From positions 1 through 64,000 of the IMG/VR virus record IMGVR_UViG_3300044949_001956: DNA of 64,000 nt; one strand, given 5' to 3'. Both the position numbers and the translations under genes were made by a program. Shown here in pieces: positions 19,922-58,993 of this stretch. The notes beneath the pieces are model-generated. The model did not search any database. It saw only the letters and a program-made list of their open reading frames with translations, and was not told where the DNA came from. The stretch is from a virus. The first letter of the stretch is position 1, and each line of letters starts with the position of its first letter.

Positions 19922-21932
19922 CCCTGTACACGCCGTCAAAGCCCTTCGGCGGAGAGTAACTTTCCATTCTCTCCGCCATCATCTTGTAGTAGTCAACCAG
20001 CTCGCCGTCAAACAGCGGCTTGAGGTTGGGCAGCATTGACCTGGCAATGTCCCACCTGCCCTTGCGATACGCGGTCAGGAACTCCTGATGCAGGTTCATC
20101 GCCAGTATGTCTCTGTTCTTGACTACGGTATAGATCGACACGGGCTCGGTCTTGCCCTTGACCGCTAGTAGGTCAAGCTCGACCACGTTGAACTCTCCCA
20201 TGACTTGCTCTGCGGTCTTTGGACCAAGGACCAACTTCACGCCGTATGGCTTTGACTGTCCCTCAAGCCTTGCCGCTAGGTTCACGCTGTCGCCCAAGCA
20301 CGTGTAGTCAAACCTCTGGTCACTGCCCATGTTGCCGACCACGACTGAACCCGTATTGATGCCCAGGCCCATGCCGAACGCAGGCACTCCCTCCTTGGCG
20401 ATCTCGTCGTTGAACCTCTTTAGGTCGTCAAGCATAGCAAGTGCCGTGCGGACTGCATCGACTGCGTGCTTTTCGTTGTCAAGCGGAGCATTCCAGAATG
20501 CCATCTGGGCATCGCCGATGTACTTATCAAGAGTGCCGTTGTTCTCTAAGATCTTTGCTGTCATGGCAGTCATGTAGCGATTCATGATCTGAGTCAGGCC
20601 CTGGACGTTGTCGCCGTAGTGCTCAGAGATGGTGGTGAATCCTCGAACGTCGGTGAACATGATCGACAGCTCTCTGGTCTCACCGCCGAGCTTCAAGAGC
20701 TCTGGATTCTTCTGCAGCTTCTCCACCATGTCGGGAGACAGGTACGTGCCGAACTGCTTCTTGATCTGCTGCTTGAGTCTGAACTCCTCCATGGCTCTAG
20801 AGAATGCGGCAGCGGAGAACACAAGTATTGCTGCGGTGATAGGGAACACGGCGTCAAATAGGACCATGTACTCGGCTCTGGCAAACAGCGAGGCGTAGGC
20901 GACCCACCCGATTACAAACACCACGACTGGTCCGCCGACTATCAGTCTCGTCCGTAGGGCCATCAGTATTACCAGTAGACCGACAAGGAGCGATACAGCT
21001 AGCTCGTACGTGTCTGCCTCTGCCTGTCTGGTCACAAACAGTCGATTTATGACAGATGACAGCTCAGTCGCTATGACCTTTGCCGGCAGCATCTCGCCGT
21101 GACTTGTGGCGACCGGGTTGCTGAATCCCTCGGCGGTCAGTGACAGGATGACTATCGTTCCGTCCAGATCATCCGGGAGGTCCAGCACTGAGTATGATTC
21201 GTACCTGAACGAGCGAACGGGCCAAAGTCGACTGTTGGGGTCTGTGTATAGCAGAGGTTGCCCGGGTATCCTCAGCACCTCTACACCCAGATCGTTTGAT
21301 CTGATCTGAAAGCTGACCTCGTCGGACAGCACTCGAAGAGTCTCTAGAATCAGTGATGGATAGACCTTGTCGCCCACCGACACAAGCATCGGACTGCGAC
21401 GAACTACGCCGTCGGGCTCTGGCATGGTGGCTATCATGCCCACGCCAGATGCCGCTTCAGCAAACTGAGGCAGCGGCGGTATGGCGCCGGGCCATGAGGG
21501 CAGGACGTCGTTGATAGGAGGACCGATCAGGGCATAGCCTCTGTCCCTGGCAAACGGCTCTCTTGCCTGTGTTGTCGGCGCCTGAGCCAGGATGACCGTG
21601 TGCTCTCTCAGGGCATTCTCTAGGTCTGAGTCCTTGCCTGACCTATCAGTCTCCGAGAACAGTATGGGCACCACTATAGCCGCGGCGCCTCTGTCCATGA
21701 TGTCGTTGATGTATCGGGCGACAACATCTCTGGGCCATGGCCATTGACCGTTCTGCTGTAGAGCCGCCTCGTCTATGTTGACTAGCACTATCCCCGGATC
21801 GTTGATGACGGCCTGCTGGCGCTCGAGGAAGTCAAAGTACTTCATCCTTGCAACCTCAACGGGCCATGGATCAAAAGCTCTGATCGCCAGTAAGGCGACT
21901 AGGATCAATGCGGAGAGGATGTATTTCTTCAT
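19908..21932 (-). CDS. CHASE2-domain class III adenylate/guanylate cyclase
   Basis: 674 residues. N-terminal TM segment, an extracytoplasmic CHASE2 domain (about 30-320, with INDPGIVLVNIDEAALQQ and WPWPRDVVARYINDI), three TM segments near 330-400, then a class III catalytic domain. The catalytic motifs look intact: ELSIMFTDVRGFTTISE (metal-binding Asp), DKYIGDAQMAFW and GINTGSVVVGNMGS with LGDSVNLAARLEG. The start at MKKYILSAL overlaps the upstream stop by 1 nt (TAATG), making it the last gene of the curli-like operon. It would make cAMP or cGMP at the inner membrane in response to a periplasmic signal. Very unusual cargo for a phage. Confidence 0.9.
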   Translation of the reverse strand: MKKYILSALILVALLAIRAFDPWPVEVARMKYFDFLERQQAVINDPGIVLVNIDEAALQQNGQWPWPRDVVARYINDIMDRGAAAIVVPILFSETDRSGKDSDLENALREHTVILAQAPTTQAREPFARDRGYALIGPPINDVLPSWPGAIPPLPQFAEAASGVGMIATMPEPDGVVRRSPMLVSVGDKVYPSLILETLRVLSDEVSFQIRSNDLGVEVLRIPGQPLLYTDPNSRLWPVRSFRYESYSVLDLPDDLDGTIVILSLTAEGFSNPVATSHGEMLPAKVIATELSSVINRLFVTRQAEADTYELAVSLLVGLLVILMALRTRLIVGGPVVVFVIGWVAYASLFARAEYMVLFDAVFPITAAILVFSAAAFSRAMEEFRLKQQIKKQFGTYLSPDMVEKLQKNPELLKLGGETRELSIMFTDVRGFTTISEHYGDNVQGLTQIMNRYMTAMTAKILENNGTLDKYIGDAQMAFWNAPLDNEKHAVDAVRTALAMLDDLKRFNDEIAKEGVPAFGMGLGINTGSVVVGNMGSDQRFDYTCLGDSVNLAARLEGQSKPYGVKLVLGPKTAEQVMGEFNVVELDLLAVKGKTEPVSIYTVVKNRDILAMNLHQEFLTAYRKGRWDIARSMLPNLKPLFDGELVDYYKMMAERMESYSPPKGFDGVYRATSK

Positions 21933-23326
21933 TATTGCCCCTGTATCACCGTTATGGCTGCACAACTAGCGGTAGCGCAGTTGTGAGTGATTGAGTAGTG
22001 CTGTTGGGTGCTGCCCGTCTGTGTAGTCGTGATGGAAGTTGAACCGCCGCTTAACTCGATCCTCGCCATGTGGTTGCCAGAACCAGACTGATTCACGTTT
22101 ACGGTCTTGTTGCCGCCCAATAGGTTGATCTCAGCATAGTGTGACCCTGCGTTCTGTTGCTGCACCGTTATGGAGTTCACGTTGTTGCCTACAGTAGCAA
22201 GAACTCCTCTGGAACCACCGGTGCCTGATTGATTTATGGTTGTAGAGTTATTGCTTCCTTGGATGGTGGTCTCTATGTAGTTTGTGCTGTTATTGGAGTT
22301 CTGTGTGATGTTGGCGATGTTATTGGATCCATTGACTGTGTACTGCGTAAAGTTCCTTGTGCCCAGCTGAGTGACATTGGCTGTATTGGAGTTGCCGACC
22401 TGCTCGATGATCACTCTGCTGTCACCAGTTGCAGTAAACGTCTGCACACGTCCTGTAAATGCGGCATTGGAGTTGAATGGCGTGGCACTACCGCCGCAGC
22501 AAAGAGAGGGTGCGGCCGCGGGCGGGGGCGGGGCGGATGAGCCAGCATTTGGCTGGACGGGAGCAAACGTCTGCCCGTTCAGTGTGGTCGTGCCCTGAAT
22601 CTCATCAACTAGTAGGATCGGACTCAAAGCTGTATCACCAAGGTTAAAGCTAGCAAACCCCAGTGTGTATGTTCCTGTTTCCGGAACCGTAAATGTTGCC
22701 ACCTGCCATCCAGTTGAGCCGTAGCTGCCGGTAGAGTAGTTGCCCGTGCCGGGATTAGTAAACCCAAGCAGTCCGTATCTGCGCTGTAGGTTGTTCAGCG
22801 TTGGAATCTTGCTTGCATCCGTAGAGTGGACCAACGTGATCAGAGAGCCGTCATTGAACGGCGTGTAGTCAGAGGAGATGTACTGCCACGCTATGCTGTA
22901 GGTTACCCCGACTTGTAGTGCAACTGATCGCCTCAACCAGACTCCGTTTGTTGGGGTAGGATTACCACCACCGGTTTGAGCTTGCTGCTGCAGCATAGTT
23001 CTTATGGCTGTATTGTCTGCCTGCAGCAATCCAAGGCTAGACACTATGGAATCAAATCCAGGAGCTCCGGAGCCAGCTTGTAGTGAGGCCATGTGTGTTC
23101 CATGCGGCGTGACATTCCATGTCTTACCGCCACCTGGCGCAAAGTTAGTTACTCCTGTGACAACAGCCACGCCCACACCATTGGCGCCCCAACCTGTAGG
23201 ACCACGGGTTGCATTGTTGCTTGCGGTCCATCCAGTTAGGTTGCCAAGCTCAAATCCATAGTTGTCCTGAGCCGTTGCTGTGGTAGCAAACAGCAGTACA
23301 AACAATGCGGCAAGTAATCTGATCAT
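21932..23326 (-). CDS. Exported adhesin-like protein with C-terminal curlin-type repeats
   Basis: 464 residues. Signal peptide ends at TATAQ. The N-terminal about 240 residues look like a beta-sandwich module (NYGFELGNLTGWTAS, then VPETGTYTLGFASFNLGD), typical of exported surface proteins. A Pro/Ala linker follows (about 265-285). The C-terminal about 170 residues carry curlin-like repeats with the N-x-A/T-x-x-x-Q-x-G spacing (NSNTANVTQLG, NNIANITQ, NNSTTINQSG). A likely curli-associated fibre subunit or tip adhesin. It overlaps the FecR gene by 4 nt. Confidence 0.75.
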   Translation of the reverse strand: MIRLLAALFVLLFATTATAQDNYGFELGNLTGWTASNNATRGPTGWGANGVGVAVVTGVTNFAPGGGKTWNVTPHGTHMASLQAGSGAPGFDSIVSSLGLLQADNTAIRTMLQQQAQTGGGNPTPTNGVWLRRSVALQVGVTYSIAWQYISSDYTPFNDGSLITLVHSTDASKIPTLNNLQRRYGLLGFTNPGTGNYSTGSYGSTGWQVATFTVPETGTYTLGFASFNLGDTALSPILLVDEIQGTTTLNGQTFAPVQPNAGSSAPPPPAAAPSLCCGGSATPFNSNAAFTGRVQTFTATGDSRVIIEQVGNSNTANVTQLGTRNFTQYTVNGSNNIANITQNSNNSTNYIETTIQGSNNSTTINQSGTGGSRGVLATVGNNVNSITVQQQNAGSHYAEINLLGGNKTVNVNQSGSGNHMARIELSGGSTSITTTQTGSTQQHYSITHNCATASCAAITVIQGQ

Positions 23327-24408
23327 CTGTTCCAGATCCTTACTGTTACTCTGCTTCCACCGTCACCGCTGACCCTAGACTGAGTGTCGACCTCATTGAT
23401 AGAGATGCTGTATGTCGTGTTGTCGGTGCGCTCGCCGGTGTAGATTCTGATCACGTTGTTGCGCTGCTCGTCCTCTCTGTGATACCAGTTTCTACCCCTC
23501 TCGTTCCCACAAGCGTTGAATGGCCAACACGGGTTCGTGGGGGACACGTCGCCTTGCATCTCCGCTGTGGATGACACAAGCAATCTAGTCGATGAAGATG
23601 ACTCTGATTGTTGGTGATTGGATTCAGCGCTACTGGAGGAAGTCGCTCTCTGCTCCTCGCTCGACACAGCACTGCGGTTGCGGTCCCTTTCTCTAGCCTC
23701 ATTGCGCTGCTGCTCTGCAGCCAATATGCCCTCGGGCTTGCGCAGGGCTAGATCATTGCTGATGGTGGCTATGTTTGCTTCTATTCGGACTGGGGGCAGG
23801 GGTTGCTGATTAGCGTCTGTAACGTACGTGGCTGTAAATGGCTGAGTCAGGGTAACAGACCCCGCTGCCGTTATGACGTCGATTATGCCCACTGTGCAGT
23901 TGCCAGAGATCTCAAAGCGATTGATTTCTCTGGGGTCATTGCACGAGGGAAGCAGCACCACAAAGCTACGCCCCGCTTCATCCACCGACATCGCCATGTC
24001 AGTTCCCCTTACAGCAACTGTGGCTGTAGGAGTTGAGATGTTTAGGTTCTGTCGATTGGATCTAGCTATCTGACCAGACGTGTACTGAACTGTGCCCAGA
24101 GTGACTCTCATCGCCATCCTGCCAGCATCGGATCGGTTGGGATCGAACACGAAGCTGTCGATGACTAGTCTGGAGTTCTCTTTGATCTTGACTCTGGTGT
24201 TGTCCTGGAACGTGATGTTGGTCTCCGCTCTGGAGCCAACAAGCACGGTGTCCATGCTCTCTATGCTTGTGTTCTGTTGACCCGGTATAGAGTTTGAACC
24301 TCGTCTGATTTCAACGGTTGTCCCCGTCTGCTCAGAGACTCTGCCGACGGCAGCGTGAGCCACCGTCGGCATTAGGCATAACAATAATCCCACCAGTAGC
24401 TTTTTCAT
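23323..24408 (-). CDS. Exported FecR-domain protein
   Basis: 361 residues. Signal peptide (MKKLLVGLLLCLMPTVAHA) and then a FecR-type beta domain (about 40-150) with VLVGSRAETNITFQDNTRVKIK and LNISTPTATVAVRGTDM. There is no anti-sigma TM arrangement; it is a secreted FecR-domain protein. The second half is Ser/Gln/Arg-rich and low-complexity, then ends in a beta-like region. FecR-domain proteins occur in some bacterial surface and biofilm loci. It sits between the two curlin-repeat genes, so a role in the fibre or its assembly is likely. Confidence 0.78.
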   Translation of the reverse strand: MKKLLVGLLLCLMPTVAHAAVGRVSEQTGTTVEIRRGSNSIPGQQNTSIESMDTVLVGSRAETNITFQDNTRVKIKENSRLVIDSFVFDPNRSDAGRMAMRVTLGTVQYTSGQIARSNRQNLNISTPTATVAVRGTDMAMSVDEAGRSFVVLLPSCNDPREINRFEISGNCTVGIIDVITAAGSVTLTQPFTATYVTDANQQPLPPVRIEANIATISNDLALRKPEGILAAEQQRNEARERDRNRSAVSSEEQRATSSSSAESNHQQSESSSSTRLLVSSTAEMQGDVSPTNPCWPFNACGNERGRNWYHREDEQRNNVIRIYTGERTDNTTYSISINEVDTQSRVSGDGGSRVTVRIWNR

Positions 24409-24412
24409 GCTA

Positions 24413-25081
24413 CTATCTGCCGGTGGAGATCGTTACTGCGTTTGAGTTACCGGTTGTAGTTAGATTAACAGTCGTGTCTGCGGTGCCATGCTGAGTGATA
24501 GAGTGCGTGTTGCTTGTGCCGGTGATTGCGGCGACAAGTACGTGACCTGCACCAGCGCTTGCCCCAGTCATTGAGCTTGTAAGTGTGTTAGAGTCACCGA
24601 GGATCGTGATAGAGCTTGAGCTGCTGTTTGTGGTGATGGTCTGTGTCACAGCATTTGAGTTGCCTGTGATGTCAAGTGTGTTGGTGATGTTGCTGCCTCT
24701 GATAGTTGAGGTAACGGTGTTGAGATCACCAGCGATCGTCATTGTGCTAGTTACGGCCGTGCATGCAGTCGTGTTGTTGCCGCAGTTGAACGTGATCTGG
24801 TTTGTGTCGCCAGTCACGGTCTTTGTGATGGTGTTGTTGTCACCGATCACCTCATAGTCAATGATGTTGGCGTCACCTGTCTGAGTTGTCGATAGTGTGT
24901 TGTTGCTACCAGTGATGCTAGATGGGGACTGTGCAGTTCCTACGCGGTTGGTGTTTCCCATCTGTGTGATGTTAACTGTATTGGTGCTACCGACCTGCTC
25001 GATGTGAACTAGGTTCTGAGCAAGCAGAGGTGAAGCTGTTAGTAGAAAAAGACCTACTGCAGCTACTATTTTTCTGAGCAT
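24413..25081 (-). CDS. Curlin-repeat amyloid subunit-like protein (CsgA/CsgB type)
   Basis: 222 residues from MLRKIVAAVGLFLL (start chosen for GGACGG upstream). A signal peptide is followed by an almost purely repetitive Asn/Thr/Gly/Gln sequence with N-T-V-x-x-x-Q-x-G type units (HIEQVGSTNTVNITQMGNTN, NNTLSTTQTGDAN, NSNAVTQTITTN, SNTHSITQHG). This repeat pattern is diagnostic of curlin subunits that form amyloid. It follows csgG by 16 nt and precedes the FecR gene by 4 nt. Confidence 0.82.
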   Translation of the reverse strand: MLRKIVAAVGLFLLTASPLLAQNLVHIEQVGSTNTVNITQMGNTNRVGTAQSPSSITGSNNTLSTTQTGDANIIDYEVIGDNNTITKTVTGDTNQITFNCGNNTTACTAVTSTMTIAGDLNTVTSTIRGSNITNTLDITGNSNAVTQTITTNSSSSSITILGDSNTLTSSMTGASAGAGHVLVAAITGTSNTHSITQHGTADTTVNLTTTGNSNAVTISTGR

Positions 25082-25097
25082 TTTCCGTCCTATTTGA

Positions 25098-25907
25098 TTA
25101 TGGTGAAGTGGGTGCAAATTGCCAGACGCCTCTTCGTTCACCATCAAATATTATTTCAGTTACAGCGCCCAAAATAGCCAATTGTACTGCATAGTTCATG
25201 CTTTCATTAGAAGCAGCACCGGTCTCCATCTCCAATGACCGTGTGCCGAGTTCATTGAACCTGAGCACACTTACCTTGTCTTGCCAGCTGACAACAGTCT
25301 TGCTGACAGTTACCGACGAAAGAACTTCGCCCGTGGCTACGCTTACAGCACGAAGGTTGACCACTACTTCATCTTGCCTGTACTCGGTTAGACCGCCGAT
25401 GCCCAGGACCCTGGCGCCAAGACCGCCACTCATTAGATTTGAGTCGTAGCCTATGATGCCGCCTTCAAAGATCATGCCGGCAAACACGAGCGGTGGGAGT
25501 GGTCTTGCGTTTGGACCCTCATACAGCTCGCGCATCTGACGAATCAGCTGGCGCTCCTTGATCAGGTTGTCCAATCCGCCTCGCTCGACTACTCGGAACC
25601 AACGGCCGTTGCCAACCGTCTGCAGCGTACGAACTAGATACGCGTCAGCACCCTGAGTCACTGCGGAGCTCAAGGTGGCTATGTTTTGACTTGCTCTTCT
25701 CTGACCTGTTAGGTCTCTGAACTGATACACGGCAACCGTGACTGCACCTGTGGCAGGCGCCGGTATCTCTCTGGGAGTTTCTAGTGCTGGATTGACAAGC
25801 TCCGGGTCTCTTGTTCCGAGCCCGACTTGCTCTCGTAGGTCTCTACCGAGCTGACCGCAGCCAGACAGTAGCAGACCCGCTAAGATGATGATGGGGATGT
25901 TCTTCAT
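25098..25907 (-). CDS. csgG: Curli secretion channel lipoprotein CsgG
   Basis: 269 residues. Lipoprotein signal with lipobox LLLSGC. The CsgG core is visible as VAVYQFRDLTGQR, GRWFRVVERGGLDNLIKERQLIR, FAGMIFEGGIIGYDSN, EYRQDEVVVNLRAVSVATGEVL and the C-terminal NYAVQLAILGAV. Length matches E. coli CsgG (277). It forms the outer-membrane pore for curli subunits. The ATG overlaps the csgF stop by 4 nt (ATGA). Confidence 0.92.
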   Translation of the reverse strand: MKNIPIIILAGLLLSGCGQLGRDLREQVGLGTRDPELVNPALETPREIPAPATGAVTVAVYQFRDLTGQRRASQNIATLSSAVTQGADAYLVRTLQTVGNGRWFRVVERGGLDNLIKERQLIRQMRELYEGPNARPLPPLVFAGMIFEGGIIGYDSNLMSGGLGARVLGIGGLTEYRQDEVVVNLRAVSVATGEVLSSVTVSKTVVSWQDKVSVLRFNELGTRSLEMETGAASNESMNYAVQLAILGAVTEIIFDGERRGVWQFAPTSP

Positions 25908-26356
25908 GGCGCCATCCACCCAAAGTCCCCGATGGGCACATTCATGGTGGTGACTGAACCGGCAGAGTCCCTGATGGTCACTGCTATCAGATTACCGGTC
26001 TTTGAGTACGATATAGTACCGCCATTGAAGGCAAAGGTACCCGAGGCTTGAGCACCAGTGCCTTCAAATAGCTTTTCGGTAATCTGTCTGGCTAGTTCGT
26101 TGTAGACTCTACTCTCTAGGTTTGTGATGAACCTAGCCATAGTGGTGTTCTGAGCTGTCTGCTCGGCTCTGAGCTGCGCTGCCTTTCTTTCGGCTTCGAC
26201 AGCTATCCTTCTTGACAGCTCCATGTTGTAGACAGTAAGCACATGACTGCTGTAGCCAACACCCGAGAAGGCAGGCGAGTTGAATTGGAAGAGTATTTCA
26301 CTTGATTTCGCGGGATTAATGATGAAGACCATAACGATGAGAAGCAGTGCTCTCAT
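25904..26356 (-). CDS. csgF: Curli assembly component CsgF
   Basis: 150 residues with a signal peptide (MRALLLIVMVFIINPAKS) followed by ILFQFNSPAFSGVG, the conserved mature N-terminus of CsgF that plugs the CsgG pore. The rest is helical and then a beta-rich tail. First gene of the operon csgF-csgG-curlin-fecR-adhesin-cyclase. The ribosome binding site GGAGAC is paired with GTCTCC just downstream of a late-promoter box, suggesting late-specific translation. Confidence 0.88.
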   Translation of the reverse strand: MRALLLIVMVFIINPAKSSEILFQFNSPAFSGVGYSSHVLTVYNMELSRRIAVEAERKAAQLRAEQTAQNTTMARFITNLESRVYNELARQITEKLFEGTGAQASGTFAFNGGTISYSKTGNLIAVTIRDSAGSVTTMNVPIGDFGWMAP

Positions 26357-47028: not shown

Positions 47029-47051
47029 GAAGGGGGCAAAGCGCCCCCTTC
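47029..47051 (-). terminator. Rho-independent terminator between the DUF1127 gene and endolysin
   Basis: Minus-strand 9-bp GC-rich stem GAAGGGGGC / GCCCCCTTC with a 5-nt loop, then a short T-rich TTTC. It ends the hsp20-DUF1127 transcript just before the endolysin ribosome binding site. Confidence 0.7.
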
Positions 47052-47054
47052 TAC

Positions 47055-47234
47055 TTATACTCCAAACTTGGAGTTTGAAAGCCTCTCGGACAAGGCTTTT
47101 ATGTCGGACCTCTGGACTCCAATGTCCTGGAGGTCACGATCTGATAGTCGGTCCAGGTTGTTGATCTGCCTGTTGAACGCGACCGTGCCGCGAACCCCCT
47201 GAATAAAGTGGGACACGAAGTCCTTGAGAGCCAT
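47055..47234 (-). CDS. DUF1127 small protein
   Basis: 59 residues, starts MALKDFVSHFIQGVRGTVAF. The signature LDRLSDRDLQDIGVQRSDI is the DUF1127 (YjiS-like) motif, common in alphaproteobacteria, where such proteins have been linked to RNA binding and metabolic or stress control. Its ATG overlaps the hsp20 stop (TGATG), so it is translationally coupled to hsp20. It was probably captured from a host. Confidence 0.85.
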   Translation of the reverse strand: MALKDFVSHFIQGVRGTVAFNRQINNLDRLSDRDLQDIGVQRSDIKALSERLSNSKFGV

Positions 47235-49796: not shown

Positions 49797-49864
49797 CTAC
49801 CAGCGATCTTGGTGGGCTAGGTGGGTTTCCCATCAGTCTGGATGGTTTAGATCGCTGGTAGCTG
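49797..49864 (-). repeat. Conserved hairpin element, copy 1
   Basis: Outer inverted repeat CTACCAGCGATCT / AGATCGCTGGTAG (13 bp, perfect) encloses a 19-nt core AGACTGATGGGAAACCCAC (minus-strand reading). A close copy lies on the plus strand at 62271-62341. Both sit just upstream of early promoters. Confidence 0.7.
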
Positions 49865-51478: not shown

Positions 51479-51507
51479 TTTATACCCCATTCCGGGATTA
51501 AAGTCAA
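51479..51507 (-). promoter_or_regulatory. Early promoter cassette
   Basis: Minus-strand TTGACT, 17-bp spacer, TATAAA, then GAGACTATGGACAACGGAGA. Confidence 0.75.
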
Positions 51508-54890: not shown

Positions 54891-54919
54891 GTAGTTTCTC
54901 CATATCGAGTTGTGAGGTC

Positions 54920-55203
54920 GGTTGATTCTGTTTCTAGGCTCAACCGTAAGCCCAAGAGATTACGCCGCTAAGCGAGTCTCAACAAAGCCGTTATCGTTGG
55001 CGTTTGTGTTGGTTTGTTGCGTTGGGTAGCTTCCGCACCATTGCCTACTTCGACCCTTACTGTCATCAGTCGATCCTGTTTCCGCCCCAAAGGAAAACTG
55101 TGACGTATCATCACTGACAGAGGTCACAGCCGTGTTATTGGTGGAGCGGCGGAGTGCTGCCCTCCGGTCCTGTCTGACCTATTTGGTCGCTATCATCAGC
55201 AAC
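54920..55203 (-). ncRNA. ssrA: Two-piece (circularly permuted) tmRNA
   Basis: Read on the minus strand. The acceptor piece comes first and ends CCGCTCC-A-CCA (55148-55139), with a T-arm CGGAG/CTCCG just before. After an about 50-nt spacer (itself with a CTGTGAC/GTCACAG hairpin) the coding piece begins GGGGCGG (55088-55082), pairing with CCGCTCC to rebuild the 7-bp acceptor stem. The tag frame reads ANDNGFVETRLAA followed by TAA (stop at 54960-54962), matching proteobacterial tags (AND...LAA). Permuted tmRNA is the alphaproteobacterial form. Outer ends are approximate. The promoter lies directly upstream. Confidence 0.88.
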
Positions 55204-55207
55204 AAGG

Positions 55208-55215
55208 TATTTATA
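55208..55215 (-). promoter_or_regulatory. T4-type late promoter TATAAATA overlapping the tmRNA -10 box
   Basis: A perfect late consensus that shares bases with the sigma70-type -10 of the tmRNA promoter, so the same site could be used early and late. Confidence 0.55.
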
Positions 55216-55237
55216 CACCAGTCCTAGTCGAAGTCAA
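55210..55237 (-). promoter_or_regulatory. Early sigma70-type promoter for tmRNA
   Basis: Minus-strand TTGACT, 16-bp spacer, TATAAA. The predicted +1 (about 55203) is just before the acceptor piece; it overlaps the 3' end of the 103-aa gene. Confidence 0.75.
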
Positions 55238-55535
55238 CCTTTTCCGACACAAGAGTTCGAGTCTCAGTGACCTTAGTGACTTGAATCGTCTCGAGCTTTG
55301 GAGAGTAATAGCTGGGCCCGACCTTTGATCTTGCTACGCTTATAGCCTTCTCTTTGGTGTCGAACTTGTATGCCAGCGTCTCGTTGGTGATCCACTGAAA
55401 GATGTTGTACTGGTAGTCGATGGAGACCCAAGCTGGTACATTCTCCTCCATCATCACGTACCCGGCTGAGTTCTCAGACTGATTCATCCGGACCGATACC
55501 GTGTAGTACTCTGTCTTGATCTCGTTAACTGTCAT
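55224..55535 (-). CDS. Hypothetical protein (103 aa)
   Basis: Starts MTVNEIKTEYYTVSVRMNQS. Beta-rich with repeated Thr/Val, ending TETRTLVSEKVDFD. No family. Overlaps the 61-aa membrane protein gene by 4 nt. Confidence 0.6.
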   Translation of the reverse strand: MTVNEIKTEYYTVSVRMNQSENSAGYVMMEENVPAWVSIDYQYNIFQWITNETLAYKFDTKEKAISVARSKVGPSYYSPKLETIQVTKVTETRTLVSEKVDFD

Positions 55536-55717
55536 CGGTTCTTGATGAGCTTGTAGAGTTCTGGGGCTACAACAAAGGCTCCGAACACGAGGAAGGGCGC
55601 TGCAAGCATGAACAGTGACAGAGCAGCGCCGAAGATGAATCCTAGACCGATACCGAGTAAGATGTAGCCAAACGCTAGTATCAAAAGTCCGATGATGAGT
55701 CTTTCCTGATCAGGCAT
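55532..55717 (-). CDS. Small membrane protein with two TM segments (61 aa)
   Basis: Hydrophobic throughout (IIGLLILAFGYILLGIGLGF, then LSLFMLAAPFLVFGAFVV) with a short basic tail YKLIKNR. Coupled to neighbours by overlaps. Function unknown. Confidence 0.65.
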   Translation of the reverse strand: MPDQERLIIGLLILAFGYILLGIGLGFIFGAALSLFMLAAPFLVFGAFVVAPELYKLIKNR

Positions 55718-56030
55718 CTAACTCTCCCAGGGGATCAAAAATGTTGACTGTCTCTTCCTTTCTGGGTTCCATGATGACTCTACTGGGGTCATATCCAGTG
55801 TAGTACCAGAAGGCTATTCTAAGTGCGGACAGAGTCTTGAACTGTATGGAGGCGCCCTTGGCGATCATGATTGCCGCCGGCTCTCCGGAGCTCTTTCGTA
55901 CGTAGTCAATGAACTCCTCGTCGAAGAGGCACTGAGTTTCCAGTCGATTGATGTCACGAAGCAATGCCTCGCAAGTCTCTTTGTGCTTCTTGTTGAGGAA
56001 CGGAACGTCAGAGAACCTTATGTAAGCCAT
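55710..56030 (-). CDS. Hypothetical protein (106 aa)
   Basis: Starts MAYIRFSDVPFLNKKHKETC. Helical with ETQCLFDEEFIDYVRKSSGE and an acidic tail. No family. First gene of a three-gene run. Its ribosome binding site (GGGAGAG) is inside a 12-bp hairpin whose loop holds a late-promoter-like box. Confidence 0.65.
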   Translation of the reverse strand: MAYIRFSDVPFLNKKHKETCEALLRDINRLETQCLFDEEFIDYVRKSSGEPAAIMIAKGASIQFKTLSALRIAFWYYTGYDPSRVIMEPRKEETVNIFDPLGELDA

Positions 56031-56032
56031 CA

Positions 56033-56078
56033 GTCTCTCCCGTCAGTGTGTGTGCCTATTTAATGAGACGGGAGAGAC
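56033..56078 (-). promoter_or_regulatory. Hairpin covering the ribosome binding site of the 106-aa gene, with an internal late-type promoter
   Basis: Perfect 12-bp stem GTCTCTCCCGTC / GACGGGAGAGAC. The 3' arm contains GGGAGAG, the Shine-Dalgarno, 5 nt before the ATG. The 22-nt loop contains ATTAAATA (56057-56064), so transcripts starting there lose the 5' arm. Confidence 0.65.
56057..56064 (-). promoter_or_regulatory. T4-type late promoter-like box (ATTAAATA)
   Basis: Two mismatches to TATAAATA; lies in the loop of the hairpin at 56033-56078, about 27 nt before the ATG at 56030. Confidence 0.45.
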
Positions 56079-56095: not shown

Positions 56096-57139
56096 CTACG
56101 TCCAGATTGATTGACCGTTCGGACTACGAATACGATCTCTCCAAGCAGCTCGGATCAGCTCATGAGTCGCAGCAGGGAGCGGAATGTACTCTAGACGAGA
56201 GGCAATGTCACTGCCCTGACGGTATGCCCAATCAAAGAAGCGCATCGTATTCAAGCTGCCCGCCACCTTGTCCGCCGTCGGGTTGGTCGGCAACAGGATG
56301 TAGGTGGGCGAGGTGATCGGCCACACCGTCGCACCGTTCAGGTCGATGGTGTCGGCGGCGAAGTTCGGCACATTCCAATCGGCCGCCGCGGCGGTCGCCA
56401 GGAAGGCAGGCGGCTCCGGGCGCACGAAGTTGCCGGACTTGTTCCGGATCTGCGTGGTCGGCATCCGGTTCACCACGGCATAGGCGTTCTCGATGTAGCC
56501 GATCGTGCCCGGGGTGTTGCGGATGATGTTCGACACGCCTTCATTGCCGCGCGCGCCATTGCCCACCGGCCAGCGCACGGAGGTCCCGGCACCCGGACCA
56601 TTGCGCCACTCTTGGGAGATGCGCGAGAGATAGGTCGTCCACACCCAGGTCGTGCCCGAGCCATCGGCACGGTAGGCGACCGAAAGCGGCAGGTTCGGGA
56701 TACGGATGTCGCGGTTCAGCTCGGCGATCCGCGGATCGTTCCAGCGGGTGATCCGGCCGAAGAAGATGTCGGTGATGATTTCCGGCGTCAGGCGCAGCGC
56801 ATTGTCCGCCACACCCGGCAGGTTCGCGCTCAGCACGACCGAGCCCATGACGGTCGGGAACTGCAGAAGGTTGCGCTCGGCGAGCTGCGCCGTGGTCAGC
56901 GGCGCGTCAGAGGCGCCGAAATCGACCGTACGCGCGGTGATCTGGTTGATGCCGCCGCCGGAGCCGATTGACTGGTAGTTCAGCTGCACGCTGATGGCTT
57001 CTCGTGCGGCCTGCGCCCAGCGCTCATAGAGCGGACGGGGGAAGGTGGCGCCGGCGCCGGTGATCGTAAGTGTTTGTGCTGATAGACTGGGGGATGCTAG
57101 TAGAGCGGCACCAGTCAGCATTAATGTTCGTCGGTCCAT
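56096..57139 (-). CDS. pstS: Periplasmic phosphate-binding protein PstS
   Basis: 347 residues with a signal peptide (MDRRTLMLTGAALLASPSLSA). The P-binding sites are visible: ITGAGATFPRPLYERW, QSIGSGGGINQI, DFGASDAPL and VAYRADGSGTTWVW. It binds phosphate for the host Pst transporter. The middle of the gene (about 56.23-57.06 kb) is much richer in GC and GC-ending codons than its flanks, as expected for a recently host-derived gene. AAGGAG lies before the ATG. Confidence 0.92.
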   Translation of the reverse strand: MDRRTLMLTGAALLASPSLSAQTLTITGAGATFPRPLYERWAQAAREAISVQLNYQSIGSGGGINQITARTVDFGASDAPLTTAQLAERNLLQFPTVMGSVVLSANLPGVADNALRLTPEIITDIFFGRITRWNDPRIAELNRDIRIPNLPLSVAYRADGSGTTWVWTTYLSRISQEWRNGPGAGTSVRWPVGNGARGNEGVSNIIRNTPGTIGYIENAYAVVNRMPTTQIRNKSGNFVRPEPPAFLATAAAADWNVPNFAADTIDLNGATVWPITSPTYILLPTNPTADKVAGSLNTMRFFDWAYRQGSDIASRLEYIPLPAATHELIRAAWRDRIRSPNGQSIWT

Positions 57140-58964: not shown

Positions 58965-58993
58965 GTTATACCATGGGTGGGGTATAAAGTCAA
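58965..58993 (-). promoter_or_regulatory. Early promoter cassette
   Basis: Minus-strand TTGACT, 17-bp spacer, TATAAC, 33 nt before the 62-aa gene. Confidence 0.7.

Follow-up and report, generated by a model that had tools for sequence, protein, structure and literature searches.

A perfect 12-bp hairpin on the minus strand of a cyanophage-like T4 relative covers the ribosome-binding site (RBS) of a conserved gene behind pstS and holds in its loop a candidate late-promoter element, ATTAAATA. We give a probability of roughly one half to the reading that this is an RNA time gate of the type represented by T4 e, gene 49, and I-TevI. RNA entering from upstream (from pstS and early promoters) would contain both arms, fold into the 12-bp hairpin, and hide the GGAG of the Shine-Dalgarno (SD) sequence; the downstream 106-aa gene would thus be silent on the long RNA, and translational coupling would extend this silence to the overlapping 61- and 103-aa genes. 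A gp55-type late polymerase would start RNA in the loop, at the non-consensus ATTAAATA, and this RNA, being without the 5′ arm, would be translated. The sequestering half of the switch is strong; the late-promoter half is only plausible. The following features, listed in the direction of transcription, are located in the window, i.e., the 64,000-nt stretch of DNA analysed, itself part of a 107,845-bp viral record:

58965..58993, minus strand: sigma70-like promoter TTGACT-17-TATAAC, the nearest upstream candidate able to read into the hairpin
56096..57139, minus strand: gene for a pstS-like phosphate-binding protein (PHROG 5385, E 2.8e-58)
56067..56078, minus strand: 5′ arm of the hairpin, GTCTCTCCCGTC (from sequence and fold), present only in RNA entering from upstream, i.e., from the pstS side
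56045..56066, minus strand: 22-nt loop, TCATTAAATAGGCACACACACT (from sequence and fold)
56057..56064, minus strand: ATTAAATA, candidate late-promoter element within the loop, one mismatch (at position 2) from NATAAATA
56033..56044, minus strand: 3′ arm, GACGGGAGAGAC (from sequence and fold), including the SD GGAG (56040-56037)
55710..56030, minus strand: conserved gene for a 106-aa helical protein (from the ORF and its relatives), controlled by the hairpin in our proposal
55532..55717, minus strand: 61-aa ORF for a hydrophobic membrane protein, overlapping the end of the 106-aa gene (ATGCCTGA)
55224..55535, minus strand: 103-aa ORF, with an ATGA overlap with the 61-aa ORF

All 12 pairs of the GTCTCTCCCGTC/GACGGGAGAGAC stem (minus strand, 56078-56033) are of the Watson-Crick type, and exactly this 12-bp stem is predicted by RNAfold, the same stem being obtained in the minus-strand context; the perfect pairing proposed in the first-pass annotation is thus confirmed from both sequence and fold. 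That annotation had placed the hairpin at 56031-56078; the structure is present, with a true extent of 56033-56078, as 56031-56032 form a TG spacer between the 3′ arm and the ATG at 56030. Its assignment of GGGAGAG (56041-56035) as the SD was correct, the motif lying in the 3′ arm with GGAG 6 nt upstream of the ATG. This start codon is secure, given an N-terminus common to four relatives. For the plus strand of the 88-nt hairpin region, the minimum free energy is -29.3 kcal/mol (z -2.6).

The record contains five perfect stems of at least 12 bp (loop of at most 40), this hairpin being one of them, compared to 0 or 1 in ten first-order shuffles; intergenic perfect stems outnumber the first-order shuffle expectation, and two further perfect 12-bp stems fall within coding sequence. 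A comparable stem over the RBS of the 106-aa gene arose in 2 of 20,000 shuffles of the upstream sequence (~1e-4), while, when corrected for all 107 genes by taking the best stem over any one of them, the chance was 2/200 shuffles (~0.01 family-wise). The loop motif by itself is only modestly unusual: a site within one mismatch of ATAAATA occurs in 1.4% of random minus-strand stretches of loop size and in 3.8% of intergenic ones. Opening the SD in upstream-initiated RNA is predicted to cost 18.6 kcal/mol, which tops the 153 starts of the record (their median being 4.9); for T4 leaders, identical code returns 14.2 (e), 15.6 (gene 49), and 11.3 kcal/mol (I-TevII). For RNA begun 6 nt past ATTAAATA, the cost drops to 5-10 kcal/mol, depending on the length of coding sequence included, the residual cost reflecting a possible pairing of GAGAGAC with GTTCTCT within the gene; the late RNAs of T4 e and gene 49 come down to 2-3 kcal/mol. 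The contrast between long and short RNA is thus clear, yet the predicted SD relief is incomplete. Of the earlier suggestion that read-through RNA would be untranslatable for the next gene, what stands is an in silico sequestration of the RBS, predicted by anatomy, statistics, and energetics alike. We consider it very likely that this sequestration is functional, and it would presumably block translation.

RNA reading through into the hairpin would presumably arise from the promoter at 58965 or from further sigma70-like candidates upstream of pstS on the same strand (61052, 61799, and 62106); no minus-strand terminator-like site was found between 58965 and the hairpin, and the pstS stop codon lies 17 nt upstream of the 5′ arm. 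On the downstream side, the 106-aa protein matched no Pfam or PHROG family, and its two-helix model gave PDB matches at chance level only. The 61-aa ORF has a weak holin-family match (E 0.042) that falls below the cut-off, and the 103-aa ORF likely belongs to the same operon; a relative of the latter, checked for hairpin carriers, provided nothing useful. A role for the hairpin in restraining a membrane-active late operon may be envisaged, speculatively.

The record is that of a T4-superfamily, cyanophage-like phage, with a DNA polymerase that is nearest, among named phages, to those of cyanophages (~48%). It encodes a sliding clamp, a clamp loader, and RegA, along with UvsX-, gp41-, and PhoH-like ORFs (by inspection), tRNAs, a tmRNA, and pstS. 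Late transcription of the gp55 type is indicated by a gp55 homologue (78574-79083, E 1.6e-53), by the sliding clamp, and by the strand bias of NATAAATA, with 20 copies on the minus strand, which is rich in coding sequence, vs 3 on the plus strand. Near starts in relatives, ATAAATA ranked first in three of four record sets in an unbiased search of 7-mers. The early promoters of the phage are clear sigma70-like TTGACT-17-TATAAA/T elements, several of them upstream of pstS on the same strand.

Other elements of the record are described here in their own right. The tmRNA gene (window 54916-55256, minus strand) is permuted and of alphaproteobacterial type, with TTGACT-16-TATAAATA at its start. A 13-bp, PeSL-like stem (window 49797-49861) lies directly upstream of the early promoter TTGACTTT-TATAAAGAGACTATG, and its promoter/leader is repeated at 51484, 52084, 61804 (minus), and 62438 (plus). 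A 15-bp perfect stem at record positions 67077-67144 (minus; L002 3577-3644), with the extended -10-like TGTTATAATGG in its 38-nt loop, precedes a 124-aa ORF of no known family, the RBS of which is uncovered. A curli operon (window 21932-26356, minus strand) encoding CsgF, CsgG, curlin-repeat proteins, and a FecR protein adjoins an adenylate-cyclase-like ORF; a further 18 viral contigs contain relatives of csgF, in many cases with TAAATA located within an RBS hairpin. In the window's own csgF leader, a canonical CATAAATA abuts the stem GTCTCC/GGAGAC; this leader was rejected as a second switch, its SD relief being small (8.4 to 6.8 kcal/mol).

Evidence on the late-promoter claim for ATTAAATA is divided. 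In its favour, the distance from ATTAAATA to the ATG is 26 nt, with the NATAAATA sites of the record typically located 20-41 nt upstream of starts; a gp55 homologue is encoded; and two of the four orthologues of the 106-aa gene (L090 and L091, both behind tRNAs) carry the canonical AATAAATA 18-20 nt before the start. Transcription would be predicted to begin at ~56051, 7 nt before the 3′ arm, based on the usual T4 late-promoter distance. Against it, the mismatch at position 2 hits a conserved A, most canonical NATAAATA sites in the record then run into an A-rich stretch that ATTAAATA does not have, and near starts in close relatives TTAAATA stands at background (2/42) vs 39/112 for ATAAATA. 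With this same 2/42, NTTAAATA was rejected as a standard late variant of the phage group. The csgF leaders of other phages display NTTAAATA, NCTAAATA, and NGTAAATA at promoter distance and within hairpins, with 16/44 for these variants vs 0/19 for ATAAATA (these being related loci and not independent), and the exact ATTAAATA is found in one csgF leader (L103). The odds that ATTAAATA is a working promoter are judged to be about even.

No single reading does better than the late-promoter switch, the main rival of which is a constitutive or otherwise opened hairpin. Under this rival, which we regard as possible if doubtful, the hairpin would hide the RBS with no internal promoter, either keeping the gene low on the pstS transcript or being opened by another route, i.e., by cleavage in the A/U-rich loop and subsequent loss of the 5′ arm, or by a binding protein. 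All of the hairpin evidence fits it equally, the loop motif is off consensus, and the A/U-rich loop could serve as a cleavage site; moreover, pstS ribosomes would terminate 17 nt before the arm, such that coupling would not open the hairpin. It nevertheless has to treat as a 1-4% coincidence that the loop contains a promoter-like element at a suitable distance, and must contend with the canonical late promoter at that position in two orthologues and with the recurrence of similar promoter-bearing hairpins in other phages. It is unlikely that the gate is the same but with a loop promoter (TGAACC-17-TTAAAT) read by a host-type sigma70 instead of gp55, in the manner of the cassettes of a 335-kb phage (G042) described below: sigma70 cassettes of other phages have near-identical arms (CTCTCCCGT/ACGGGAGAG), but only ~7/12 consensus positions are matched (by inspection), the site is absent from the promoter-scan output, and the early promoters of this phage have the clear architecture given above.

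Still less room is left for a terminator or 3′-end stabiliser of pstS mRNA that plays no part in the next gene, a quite improbable role for a hairpin which, although stable and 17 nt past the pstS stop, has a 22-nt loop and a 3′ arm coinciding with the SD, no T-run following either arm and no terminator having been called. Being a GC stem without a T-run, it was rejected as an intrinsic terminator; a riboswitch or other Rfam RNA was also rejected, since the covariance-model matches in the window comprise tRNAs and the tmRNA only. That the inverted repeat arose by chance is very improbable at ~1e-4 for the 106-aa gene and 0.01 family-wise, even with two other perfect 12-bp stems lying inside coding sequence and with the hairpin not being conserved in the closest orthologue (L089), which is also located behind pstS, with a 17-nt gap and no hairpin; this absence counts against the late-promoter gate as well. 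In the pstS relatives L085-L088, a different gene follows pstS and no inverted repeat of at least 8 bp is found there.

As a late-promoter switch, the hairpin would probably join a known class and not constitute a new kind. By the documented rule, RNA initiated upstream folds shut, whereas late RNA begun inside the structure is translated (PMC3014915, PMC2988022), making T4 e and soc, the precedents named in the first-pass annotation, apt. As in the T4 gene e leader, the SD is predicted to be buried in a stem made only by upstream-initiated RNA (PMC3014915); the late promoter of e lies inside the structure, TATAAATA occurring once in the 5′ arm and a second time in the loop. Compared with e, the present leader has a longer, GC-rich stem and a candidate promoter element that is non-consensus, and it precedes a gene that is not recognised as a lysis gene. 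The same logic applies to the leaders of T4 gene 49, soc, I-TevI/II/III, and segB, as well as Aeh1 mobE, for several of which it is experimentally documented (PMC2988022, PMC3014915); the gene 49 and I-TevII structures were reproduced in the present analysis. Those leaders have canonical or mapped late promoters, whereas the candidate here is 1 base off. The PeSL (promoter early + stem-loop) cassettes of T4-like phages, described in work cited in PMC4503421, likewise combine an intergenic hairpin with a promoter; in PeSLs the stem-loop is a terminator beside an early promoter, whereas here the stem covers the RBS and the promoter-like motif sits in the loop.

Across 1.14 Mb of relatives, in which some loci are near-duplicates, TAAATA is the top hexamer among 15 letter permutations in the loops of RBS-covering stems (21 vs 0-12), also when only strong stems (score of at least 11) are counted (9 vs 0-4). 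The highest-scoring of these is the 56033-56078 hairpin, followed by csgF in L109/L110 (arms TGTCTGCTCCT/AGGAGCAGACA with CTTAAATA) and L102. The csgF leaders of L109/L110 count among the independent look-alikes, as do hairpins ahead of an M15-type endolysin gene (L083/L084) and a spanin-like gene (L078/L079), identified by inspecting the translated ORF; the latter two are lysis genes, as is T4 e. The broader proposal that all late leaders of the group are hairpinned was rejected (3/136 at p 0.01). In T4-like relatives, ATAAATA also abuts the 5′ arm of intrinsic terminators (e.g., L041:1871, L049:239, L051:8791, L060:636, L069:1500, and L081:9319), as it does in the present record at ~47030-47060 (minus; TATAAGTA); this holds for 18/347 sites, 16 of them at an offset of -3 to +1, and mostly ahead of a GH19-type endolysin gene. 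Given this abutment, late transcription would be expected to begin within the arm, its RNA thus escaping a terminator that halts early read-through.

A scan of other viral contigs for the arm core yielded ~12 distinct sites, 8 of which have an ATG 3-12 nt past GGGAGAG (by eye). At several, a sigma70 promoter spans the hairpin, with TTGACA, the 5′ arm in the spacer, TATAAA in the loop, and the SD in the 3′ arm. One 335,552-bp phage (IMGVR_UViG_3300031957_002643; G042) has ~ten cassettes of the form TTGACA-[anti-SD arm in 17-nt spacer]-[TATAAA in loop]-SD arm-ATG ahead of different genes, among them:

L146:3250-3283 and L147:2022-2055: examples of the cassettes
Record positions 161630, 227650, 267975, 148267, 149890, 126764, 123860, and 46350: cassettes

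This record has 8 exact matches to the pattern and none to its reverse. Its promoter-SD leaders number 31, and in this set pairing between spacer and SD is better for the native combinations than for swapped ones (0/5000 permutations); between some cassettes the stem sequences vary with pairing kept. To judge from this layout, only read-through RNA could fold shut; because the promoter's own RNA lacks the arm, the spacer/SD pairing would be best explained by selection on read-through RNA. In the fold-back inhibition of IS10/IS50 transposase mRNA, the RBS is hidden in read-through RNA, whereas transcripts from the promoter of the element itself are active; this resembles the proposed gate, albeit in a transposon context and with a sigma70 promoter. 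The cassettes of the 335-kb phage may be more novel than the 56033-56078 hairpin itself. Tentatively, a promoter inside a hairpin that silences read-through RNA might be a general phage design and not a T4 speciality, encompassing late promoters (this hairpin, csgF, endolysin, and spanin) as well as the multi-copy sigma70 cassettes of the 335-kb phage, in which the -35/-10 spacer doubles as the anti-SD arm.

If true, the proposed switch would mean that the T4 lysozyme-type gate also operates in a cyanophage-like relative of T4, on a non-lysis gene located behind pstS, an auxiliary metabolic gene. It would also suggest insulation between a captured metabolic gene, with likely early expression, and the late gene that follows. 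The comparative matches suggest that such gates are commoner than documented, and that they can be found by a simple search for an RBS and its complement with a promoter element in between.
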